From assembly GCA_022843175.1 (NCBI GenBank), contig JALHOE010000018.1:1-64000 (forward strand): a stretch of 64,000 bases of DNA, written 5' to 3'. Positions within the stretch are counted from its first letter, which is position 1. Each line of letters begins with the position of its first letter. The notes under the pieces were generated by a model. That model was not told where the DNA came from. It worked only from the letters and a program-made list of their open reading frames with translations, and did no database searches. Source of the stretch: Deltaproteobacteria bacterium. Lineage in GTDB: Bacteria; Myxococcota_A; Polyangia; Polyangiales; JADJMO01. The position numbers and the translations under genes were made by a program. Positions 58,610 to 62,767 of the stretch are shown piece after piece.

Positions 58610-61030
58610 CTACTTGGGGCAGGCCGCCTTGGTGGGCGGGGTCTGATCGTTGTCGGTCCGGCACTGCTGGAACGTGGGTTTCGCCGGATCGATGATGATC
58701 TTTGCGGTGAAGGTGTCGCTCTTGGTGATGGAAGCGTCGGCGGTGAAGGTGAGCACCTCGGTCTGGCCGGGGAAGAGCACGCGGGTGCTCTTCGCGGTTC
58801 CGAGGAGCTTCATCGGCTCCACGTAGAACCCGACCTCGACGCCGGCGGGGAGCGACGCGAGGCCGGCGTTGCGGAGCGAGGCCTCGAGCTGCACCGGGGT
58901 CGTGCAGCGGACCGCGAGCGACAGCGTGGCGTCGGGCGCGTCGAAGATGCCCTTGTCCTGCACGTTCTGGCGGAAGTTGTTCAGCCAGGGGAGCGTCCAG
59001 TTCTTCTTCTCGTTCTTCGGGATCGAGCCGTAGACGTTGGGGGCGTCGCACGCGGAGTCGCGGTCGTCGCAGATGTTGCTCACGTGGTAGGTGTGCTCGC
59101 TCCACAGCGTGCGGGTGCCGACCCACGCGTTGGCCGCGTCGCCGAACACGGTGACGCCGCTGTACGCCGTAGCGCCCATCGGCGGCTTCCACGCCGGGCG
59201 ACCGGTGACCGGATCGGCCTTGTTCCACGGGTCGACGTTGCACTTCCAGCCGGTGGCGCTCGGGTCGGCGCGGTTGCTCACCATCAGGATCTCGGAGCGG
59301 CCGTCGCCGTCGACGTCCGCCACGACCGAGGCCTCGGTCGCGGTGAAGGACGTGGTGAGGCCGGCGAAGCGCACCTTGCCGGTGGGGCCGTCGTACACCC
59401 AGACGAAGCACTCGTCGTTGTAGATGACCTCGGCGCGTCCATCTCCCTCGAAGTCGAACACGCTCGAGCCGGTGACCGACGAAGAGAGATCGTGGTTGGG
59501 CGCCGACCACATCACGCTCAGCGTCTTGGTCGCGAGGTTGACCTTGAACGCCGAGTACTGGTTCTGCATCGCGACGCCGATGTCGGGCACCTTGTCGCCG
59601 TCGAGGTCGGCGACGGTGGGCGGGCCGCCCGAGCCGGTGCCGGGGATGGTGAACGGACCGATCAGCGTCTTCCCCGTCGCGCCCTCGAGGATGTAGAGCT
59701 TGCCCGCGTTGACGACGACGACCTCGGGCTTGCCGTCCTTGTCGAAGTCGCCGATCGCGGGGAAGCCGTCGGTGATGTCGGTGCGGTTCCACAGGTTGGT
59801 GCCGTCGGCCTTGATCGCGCGCGGACCGGTGAGCAGCTCGAGGTTGCCGTCGCTCGCGCCGTCGAGGTCCACGAACGTGGAGAGATCGGTGTGCGTGTTG
59901 GCCGGAGAGGCGCCGAACTGCAGCGTGAGCTTGCCGCCCGCCGTGGTGAAGACGGTGTGGCCGTAGGCGATCTCGGGGGAGCCGTCGTGATCCATGTCGG
60001 CGATCGCGAGGCCGCCGCCCCAACCGAAGTTGTCGGCGGTCGCGCCGGCGCCGGGGATCGGCTTGTCGCTCGTGCGCACGACCTTTCCGGCCGAATCGAC
60101 GATCACCACGAAGCCCTCGCCGGTGACGGCGGCGATGTCGATCTTGCCGTCGCCGGTGAGATCGCCGATCGCGGTCGAGGTGCCGGAGAAGCCGATCGAG
60201 CCGGCGCTCGCGTTGCGGAGCGTCCAGATCTCGCTGCCGGTGCGGCCGTTGAGCATGCGGAGCACGCCGGTGTGGCACGCCGTCGGCGAGGCGCCGTTGC
60301 ACTGGCAGCACGTGCCGAGCCCGGCGGCGTCGAGCGCGCGACCGGACACGAAGACGACGCTCGGCGGATCGAGCTGGTCGACCTTGCCGTCGCAGTTCGC
60401 GTCGTAGAGCCGGCCGACCGTCGGCGTGGACCACACGTCGACGAACCCCGGATTGGCCTTGGCCGTGCCGGCGCCCCACGTCCACTCCTGCACCGCGTTG
60501 AGCTTGGCGACCGGCGGTCGGTACTCGCACTTGGCCACGCAGTCGCCAGCGTCGCCCGCGTCTCCGTCGGGGCACACCGCCGGGCGCTTCACGCATTTCC
60601 CGGGGATCGGCGGCGGCTCGAGGCACGCGCCGCCCGCGTCGCCCCCGGCGTCGACGCCGGCGTCGCTCGCGGGCTTGCTCCCACCGAGCGCGGTCTCGCA
60701 GTACTCGTCGGGCTTGCAGTCGTTGCCGCTGAAGCAGGGCCCGCCGGGCGCGACGCACTTGTCGAACAAGCACACCGTGCCGGTCGCGCAGCACCCGCCA
60801 CCACACACCGCTTCGGCGCTGGTGCAGCACTTGCCGTCGACGCACACGCCGCCGTCGCAGTCGGCCGCGCCGAGGCAGCCGCCGCCGATCTCGAAGGTGG
60901 TGCCGCCGGTGTCGTCGAGGGCCGTGTCGTCGCCGCTGGACGAGTCGGGTCCGCCCTTCAACGGATCCTCGGTCTTTTCGCCGCTGCCGCAACCCGCGAG
61001 AAAACCGAAGAGGACGACCCAGCGCTTCAT
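58610..61030 (-). CDS. FG-GAP/VCBS repeat lipoprotein
   Basis: An 806-residue lipoprotein: MKRWVVLFGFLAGCGSG, an acidic linker, a cysteine-rich region (CDGGVCVDGKCCTSAEAVC), then FG-GAP/VCBS-type repeats. The repeats are seen as GDLTGDGKIDIAAV, ADMDHDGSPEIAYG, GDFDKDGKPEVVVV, ADLDGDKVPDIGVA and ADVDGDGRSEILMV, each with the Ca2+-binding DxDxDG-type loop. The C-terminal 150 residues are beta-sandwich-like with a late cysteine. It is expected on the cell surface, in a binding or adhesive role. It is followed at 33 bp by the beta-helix gene on the same strand, so the two may be co-expressed. Confidence 0.88.
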   Translation of the reverse strand: MKRWVVLFGFLAGCGSGEKTEDPLKGGPDSSSGDDTALDDTGGTTFEIGGGCLGAADCDGGVCVDGKCCTSAEAVCGGGCCATGTVCLFDKCVAPGGPCFSGNDCKPDEYCETALGGSKPASDAGVDAGGDAGGACLEPPPIPGKCVKRPAVCPDGDAGDAGDCVAKCEYRPPVAKLNAVQEWTWGAGTAKANPGFVDVWSTPTVGRLYDANCDGKVDQLDPPSVVFVSGRALDAAGLGTCCQCNGASPTACHTGVLRMLNGRTGSEIWTLRNASAGSIGFSGTSTAIGDLTGDGKIDIAAVTGEGFVVIVDSAGKVVRTSDKPIPGAGATADNFGWGGGLAIADMDHDGSPEIAYGHTVFTTAGGKLTLQFGASPANTHTDLSTFVDLDGASDGNLELLTGPRAIKADGTNLWNRTDITDGFPAIGDFDKDGKPEVVVVNAGKLYILEGATGKTLIGPFTIPGTGSGGPPTVADLDGDKVPDIGVAMQNQYSAFKVNLATKTLSVMWSAPNHDLSSSVTGSSVFDFEGDGRAEVIYNDECFVWVYDGPTGKVRFAGLTTSFTATEASVVADVDGDGRSEILMVSNRADPSATGWKCNVDPWNKADPVTGRPAWKPPMGATAYSGVTVFGDAANAWVGTRTLWSEHTYHVSNICDDRDSACDAPNVYGSIPKNEKKNWTLPWLNNFRQNVQDKGIFDAPDATLSLAVRCTTPVQLEASLRNAGLASLPAGVEVGFYVEPMKLLGTAKSTRVLFPGQTEVLTFTADASITKSDTFTAKIIIDPAKPTFQQCRTDNDQTPPTKAACPK

Positions 61031-61088
61031 GGTGTTGAATGTATCAAGGGCTGTGACGCCGGCGAGCCGCGCGCATCAGAGGGGGCGA

Positions 61089-61352
61089 ATGACGGTCAAG
61101 ATTCTGTTCTGTCGGGCCTGAGGCTATCGCCCACGCGCGGCGAGGATCGCCGCCCGAATCAAAGAAGAGCTCGGGGTCGAGGTGGAGCTCGAGGTCGGCG
61201 CGCGCGGTCAGTTCGACGTCATGGTCGACGGCAACGTGGTGGCCTCCAAGCAGCAGGTCGGCCTCTTTGCGCGACTGCTCGGGACGGACGGCTTCCCCGA
61301 GGAGGACGCGACGGTCGACGCGGTCGAGGCGCGGCTTCAGGGGAGCACGTAG
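61089..61352 (+). CDS. selW: selenoprotein W-like (SelW/Rdx family), UGA read as selenocysteine
   Basis: An 87-residue thioredoxin-fold protein if TGA at 61119-61121 is read as selenocysteine (Sec11). The N-terminus reads MTVKILFCRA, then Sec, then GYRPRAARIAARIKEELG. The motif C8-x-x-Sec11 followed by GYRP is the redox motif of SelW, as in its CxxU-GYKP. Downstream the frame stays open with GARGQFDVMVDGNVVASKQQ, the family's VDGxxVxSK segment, to a TAG at 61352. The AGAGGGGG ribosome-binding site lies just upstream. A hairpin 22 nt after the UGA fits a bacterial SECIS. Ordinary ORF calling ends the frame at 61121. The role is redox, partner unknown. Confidence 0.85.
61137..61153 (+). promoter_or_regulatory. 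candidate bacterial SECIS hairpin
   Basis: GCGGCGA, a GGA loop, and TCGCCGC form a perfect 7-bp stem with a 3-nt loop, beginning 15 nt after the UGA at 61119-61121. Known bacterial SECIS elements have a short stem, a small loop with a G in its first two bases, and the loop 16-37 nt after the UGA. Here the loop starts 22 nt after and begins with GG. It would recruit SelB with Sec-tRNA. Confidence 0.7.
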
Positions 61353-62767
61353 AGCAGCTCGATGAGCGAGCTCGCCGGGTTGGCCCCGATGAGCACGTGG
61401 GCGGGCTTCTTCTCGCAGGTGAGCTGCACCCGGGCGGCGCCGTTGTCACCCGTGGCGAGGACCTTGCCCTCGGTGCACGGCCCGTAGGTGGCGTTGCAGT
61501 CGTTGAAGAACGCGAGCAGCCCGTCGCGCGGGAAATCGGGGCTGAAGGCCGCCTCGATCCCCGCGGCGTCGGGCTTGGCGATCAGCGCCTTCACCCGCTC
61601 GAGCGCCTTTGCGTTCCACGCGGTGAGCGCGGGCACGCAGGGCTTGGGCGTCCCCTTGCGGAGGAGCGCGCCGAGCGCCTCGTTCGCCACGCAGTCGAGC
61701 TGCTCGGCGTTCGCCACGTTCAACAGCAGCACGACGCCCGCGCGCTTGCCCGGATAGAGCTGCACCGACGCGCTGTAGTCGCCGATCGAACCGTTGTGGC
61801 CGACGAGCTTACCGAGGTCGGTTTCGCCGACGAACCAATTGACCCCGACGTTGCCGGGGGGGATCGCCGTCTGCGACTCGCGCAACGACGCCCGCGACAG
61901 CACCGCGTCGAGGCTCTCGCGCTCGCTCTCGGCGCGGGCCTCGAACGAGAGGAAGCGCGCGACATCGCTCACGGTCGAGTACAGACCGCCGGCGGGCTCC
62001 GCGGCGCCGAGGCGCCAGTGCGGGCCCGCCGCGCCCCATCCCTTCGCGGTGAGGGAGTAGCCGCGGGCGAACGCGGCCGGCTTGTCCCACGAGCTCTCGG
62101 TCATCTTGAGCGGCTCGAACAGCGAGCCCTCGATCATGTCGCGGAAGCTCTCTTTGGAGACGCGGGCCGCGATGATGCCCGCGAGGGCGACGGCGAAGTT
62201 CGAGTAGGCGAACCTGGTGCCGGGCTCGAACGCGAGCTTCGAGCCCTTGATCGCGTCGAACAGCTCGGTCTCGGTGACGTCGTGATCGCCCCGCCAATAC
62301 TCGGCGGTGCCGTCGCCGACGCTCGGGATGCCCGAGGTGTGCGTGACCAGGTGGCGGATCGTCACCTTGCCGTTGAGGAACGAGGCGAGCTCGGGGATGT
62401 GCTTGTCGACCGGGTCGTCGAGCGTGAGCTCCTTGCGGTCGCGACGCTGGAGCACCGTGACGCCGGTCATGACCTTGGTGACCGAGCCGATGCGAAACAC
62501 GGTGTGCTCGTCGACCCCGGCGCCGAAGCCCTTGCTGTAGACGAGCGTGTCTCCGTAGACGACGCCTGCCGCCATGCTCGGCCACTCGTGCGACTTGAAC
62601 TGCGCGTCGAGGTAGTCGTCGAGCGCTTTGCGCTCGGCCTCGGTCAGCGCTGGATCCGCGGGCGTTGCGTCGACCTCGGGGAAGGCGTCGGGGACCGGCT
62701 CCTGCTGGACCGGCGGCTCACTCTTCGAGGAGCAGGCGAGCAGGAGCAGGCACCACCACGCGCGCAT
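61337..62767 (-). CDS. serine hydrolase (beta-lactamase family) lipoprotein
   Basis: A 476-residue lipoprotein: MRAWWCLLLLACSSKSEPPV with the lipid-anchor cysteine at 12. The serine beta-lactamase/D-peptidase fold is shown by SVTK (SxxK), YSNFAVALAGII (YxN), and HNGSIGDYSASV in the third-motif position. The family includes class C-like esterases and DD-peptidases acting on the envelope. A C-terminal extension of about 110 residues includes cysteines in DCNATYGPCTEG and TCEKKPAH. Substrate unknown. It ends 16 bp inside the SelW gene on the other strand. Confidence 0.88.
   Translation of the reverse strand: MRAWWCLLLLACSSKSEPPVQQEPVPDAFPEVDATPADPALTEAERKALDDYLDAQFKSHEWPSMAAGVVYGDTLVYSKGFGAGVDEHTVFRIGSVTKVMTGVTVLQRRDRKELTLDDPVDKHIPELASFLNGKVTIRHLVTHTSGIPSVGDGTAEYWRGDHDVTETELFDAIKGSKLAFEPGTRFAYSNFAVALAGIIAARVSKESFRDMIEGSLFEPLKMTESSWDKPAAFARGYSLTAKGWGAAGPHWRLGAAEPAGGLYSTVSDVARFLSFEARAESERESLDAVLSRASLRESQTAIPPGNVGVNWFVGETDLGKLVGHNGSIGDYSASVQLYPGKRAGVVLLLNVANAEQLDCVANEALGALLRKGTPKPCVPALTAWNAKALERVKALIAKPDAAGIEAAFSPDFPRDGLLAFFNDCNATYGPCTEGKVLATGDNGAARVQLTCEKKPAHVLIGANPASSLIELLYVLP

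Follow-up and report, generated by a model that had tools for sequence, protein, structure and literature searches.

Selenoproteins of the SelW-like kind rank among the commonest in bacteria and make up the most abundant selenoprotein family of marine surveys (PMC1088965; PMC2398784), and they are present in other Deltaproteobacteria as well (PMC1794560). Annotation is known to miss them (PMC4607533), and the function of SelW has been called unclear (PMC1088965). The SelW of Campylobacter jejuni (CJnc60), an unannotated protein of 80 aa with a UGA in its coding sequence, has had its full-length translation supported by Ribo-seq and proteomics (PMC11955535). No report of a myxobacterial SelW was found in the literature searched, which lay mostly outside subscription journals. 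The locus examined here lies in a window of 64,000 nucleotides, the whole stretch of DNA that was analysed, and is almost certainly a real selenoprotein gene of this long-described bacterial kind, in a long form that is modestly new. With the SelW-like proteins of marine metagenomes and Deltaproteobacteria (PMC1088965; PMC2398784; PMC1794560) it shares the Rdx domain, the CxxU motif, a hairpin right past the UGA and the accompanying selA, selB, selC and selD genes, whereas it differs in its longer C-terminal part (about 87 aa in all, with an LLGxxGFP segment) and in belonging to a myxobacterium-type genome that also holds a Sec-type copy of about 70 aa. The C. jejuni protein is likewise small and UGA-containing, but NF041051, the NCBIfam equivalog model for Campylobacter SelTWH, matches the present protein below its cut-off (63.7 bits against 88).

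The gene occupies positions 61089-61352 of the forward strand, from an ATG at 61089-61091 through an in-frame TGA at 61119-61121 (codon 11) and 76 further sense codons to a TAG at 61350-61352, and its product of 87 residues, MTVKILFCRAUGYRPRAARIAARIKEELGVEVELEVGARGQFDVMVDGNVVASKQQVGLFARLLGTDGFPEEDATVDAVEARLQGST, carries the CxxU motif as Cys8 and the presumptive Sec11. Re-reading of the sequence gave exactly the coordinates, UGA position and length that the preliminary description had assigned to it. A purine-rich GAGGGGG just 5' of the ATG (61079-61085, forward strand) is a possible ribosome-binding site; it is not clearly conserved, and no clear site was seen before the counterpart in the sister genome (G003). 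A divergent gene (58610-61030, reverse strand), whose start the ATG follows at 58 nt, by its appearance encodes a large FG-GAP/VCBS-like protein and likewise adjoins the G003 counterpart (L010, 73% identity). The 3' end of the SelW gene overlaps by 16 bp a convergent gene (61337-62767, reverse strand), by appearance that of a beta-lactamase-family serine hydrolase-like protein. The earlier statement that open reading frame calling discards the gene is correct, although what precedes the UGA is not merely the 10-codon scrap then envisaged, since the mechanical caller reports a 231-aa GTG frame (60426-61121), mostly antisense to the divergent gene, that also terminates at this UGA.

Entered with Cys for Sec, the product was compared with the Rdx / SelT-SelW-SelH models PF10262 and TIGR02174. 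It matches Pfam Rdx with 49 bits (cut-off 22.6, E=7e-13, residues 2-79) and NCBIfam TIGR02174 (CXXU_selWTH) with 40.9 against a curated cut-off of 34.2, and the two matches span nearly the whole product on both sides of the UGA. Resemblance in sequence extends to human C17orf37/MIEN1, SAV_2001 and mouse SelW. AlphaFold2, run on the single sequence, gives a model with a pLDDT of 85.8 and the order strand-helix-strand-strand-strand-helix-helix, in which Cys8-Arg-Ala-Sec11 sits between the strand of residues 3-7 and the helix of residues 14-28, as a CxxU motif is expected to do. Foldseek places this model in the thioredoxin-like Rdx fold: 22 chains are matched at E <= 0.001 with bacterial SelW-related proteins on top, among them 3dex, 2fa8 and 2p0g, and mouse SelW (2npb) follows as a weaker match at rank 23. 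The Cys-type bacterial structures 3dex, 2fa8, 2p0g and 2oka share this fold, with query-normalised TM values of 0.70-0.78, but are only 20-31% identical, and 3dex aligns a Cys at the Sec position. Membership in the Rdx/SelW family, as first proposed, is thus borne out by profile, sequence and structure matches alike.

Relatives of the gene carry the UGA at the same codon. A Sec-type SelW is found in all four other genomes examined of the family, and the true counterpart in the same-genus genome G003 is 74% identical and keeps the UGA; the close relatives show no ordinary stop there, and similarity continues past the codon. Past the UGA the two genes of the genus differ at 13, 9 and 28 sites in codon positions 1, 2 and 3 (dN 0.20, dS 0.55), a pattern indicating that this part of the frame is under purifying selection. 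Of 184 genomes of the order, 41 encode a SelW of the Sec type, and G256, from another family of the class, has one of the long form. A contig search with the single SelW protein as query gave no match; with a narrow alignment it returned 11 named records, and Myxococcales and Sandaracinaceae bins are among those in which this codon is likewise UGA. UGA-bearing Sec-type SelW genes were also noted in Acidobacteria, Thermoanaerobaculia, Gemmatimonadetes and Actinobacteria bins (L072-L078). The homologues further include a Sec/Cys pair: the codon is TGA in the present genome, G003 and G256, and TGC (Cys) in a distant orthologue of the long form in G109 (L029, G109:C9:14587-14835). In that orthologue the first Cys is replaced by Ser (SxxC, as SQAC) and a further Cys stands four residues on (GYRCR), and its redox motif may have shifted; the G109 genome retains selA and tRNA-Sec despite its Cys-type long form.

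A hairpin of the SECIS type lies within the coding region (61137-61153, forward strand), with seven perfect pairs between GCGGCGA (61137-61143) and UCGCCGC (61147-61153) enclosing a GGA loop (61144-61146), 15 nt from the UGA to the stem and 22 nt to the loop. The isolated 30-nt hairpin segment has an energy of -14.4 kcal/mol. The bSECIS model (PMC13188914) allows a loop of 3-9 nt with a G in its first two bases, a stem of 4-16 bp, a spacing of 16-37 nt and an energy of at most -7.5, and the 7 bp stem, the GGA loop, the 22 nt spacing and the energy of the isolated segment fall within these limits. The perfect stem-loop noted previously is present as described, but taken by itself it does not exceed chance: comparison with shuffles gives z = -0.96, and a hairpin of equal length arises within the permitted spacing in 15% of synonymous recodings, and in precisely this register in 2%. 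Because the hairpin of the single gene is not significant, the argument was instead built on comparison across relatives.

That comparison is convincing. The stem stands in identical register in every Sec-type gene, and among 34 distinct relatives 95.4% of cells are paired. Both sides of a pair have changed in 21 cells of these sequences, where shuffles give 6.4. The covariation score reaches 0.339, whereas shuffling yields 0.135 (0 of 500) and sliding the register no more than 0.196, all of these figures counting sequences and not independent events. Two pairs are informative, columns 21-33 (C-G, U-G, G-C, U-A) and 24-30 (G-C, C-G). In each of them the two partners are third codon positions, and compensatory exchanges have preserved the pairing in 42 of 42 genes. 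In the Cys-type gene of G109 the pair 21-33 is C-C and unpaired, a single case that points in the expected direction. It is because hairpin and UGA are conserved in relatives that the observation rises above chance.

These comparisons weigh directly on the least improbable of the alternative readings, in which the locus would be a pseudogene, a Cys-type Rdx gene whose TGC or TGT has mutated to TGA and of which only a 10-residue scrap is translated. The standard code does read UGA as a stop and a Cys orthologue does exist, but the UGA is common to the sister species and to dozens of relatives in several families, the frame beyond it is under purifying selection, and synonymous positions within that frame form pairs of a conserved hairpin, one of these pairs being absent from the Cys form, all of which makes decay of the gene very improbable. 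A second possibility is that a near-cognate tRNA, such as that for Trp, reads through the UGA, or that the codon has been reassigned in this organism; read-through, too, would leave the frame open. Most relatives, however, terminate ordinarily with UGA, the orthologue has Cys at the codon, and the hairpin together with the co-occurrence of selA indicates Sec decoding; with a full Sec machinery in the genome as well, we regard this reading as slightly less probable still. That there is no gene at all, the similarity arising from an antisense or GC-rich frame coincidence, is the least probable reading, for although spurious open frames abound in this GC-rich genome and the convergent neighbour is overlapped, the Pfam match, the confident single-sequence fold and the dozens of relatives speak against it. 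The grounds for rejecting pseudogene, read-through and chance were that relatives share the UGA, that purifying selection acts on the frame and that synonymous sites pair.

The machinery itself was sought in the window's own genome, a draft of 9.75 Mb in 470 contigs that is 95% complete. Matches to selB (279 bits), selA (389) and selD (360) are present, along with a tRNA-Sec with the anticodon UCA (65.1 bits, cut-off 47), and the selA, selB, selC and selD genes that the preliminary description had implied are all there, selA and selB being cut by contig ends. The selD gene (L017:1423-2526, G000:C44) has an in-frame UGA of its own at the usual GUxCK position, followed by a predicted hairpin, and brings the number of selenoproteins predicted for the genome to at least three. 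No in-frame stop was seen in its formate dehydrogenase-like matches (L065-L067; G000:C114, C33, C124); the Sec trait of the genome is therefore not explained by a Sec-type formate dehydrogenase, and Sec appears not to be kept for that enzyme here. Across the order selA occurs in 36 of the 41 genomes with a Sec-type SelW and in 19 of the 143 without one (Fisher p 4.6e-19, for genomes that are not independent), and in each of the five Sec-type genomes lacking selA a tRNA-Sec scores above the cut-off, though only marginally in G176.

The explanation that we favour with high confidence is that the gene encodes a cytosolic SelW/Rdx selenoprotein with a thioredoxin-like CxxU site. The hairpin past the UGA would recruit SelB with Sec-tRNA(Sec), and delivery of this tRNA would place selenocysteine at codon 11, an insertion that is strongly indicated by the family match, the selA-selD set and the relatives in which similarity runs on beyond the UGA, in agreement with the decoding first suggested. 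The folded product would be a small thioredoxin-like domain whose active site holds Cys8 and Sec11 as its redox pair, and by analogy with its family it would most likely act as a thiol/selenol oxidoreductase whose Cys-Sec bond is resolved by thioredoxin or glutathione.

A shorter SelW, also of the Sec type, occurs in addition both in the own genome (G000:C425) and in G003 (G003:C6), and the longer Sec-encoding paralogue alongside this ordinary one of about 70 aa is the modest novelty of the locus. The copy on G000:C425 (about 1742-1954 of that contig; L014:1498-1710) has the motif CVAU-NYLPR and a hairpin in the same register with a GGTCT loop. It is conceivable, though we hold this only tentatively, that the form of about 87 residues (the present genome, G003 and G256, with the Cys-type G109) constitutes a Sec-encoding Rdx subfamily of its own in myxobacteria, kept beside the shorter SelW because its partner or substrate differs. 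The five longer forms, that of G209 included, do not group in one supported clade; with G209 left out, the other four do (96/93).

The view of how Sec decoding works is not changed by this gene. It is a further instance of standard annotation losing a SelW-type selenoprotein gene, and it extends the Sec-type SelW genes, of which a genome sometimes has two, to the myxobacteria, where the Sec/Cys orthologue pair offers a natural comparison for why selenocysteine is kept or dropped.
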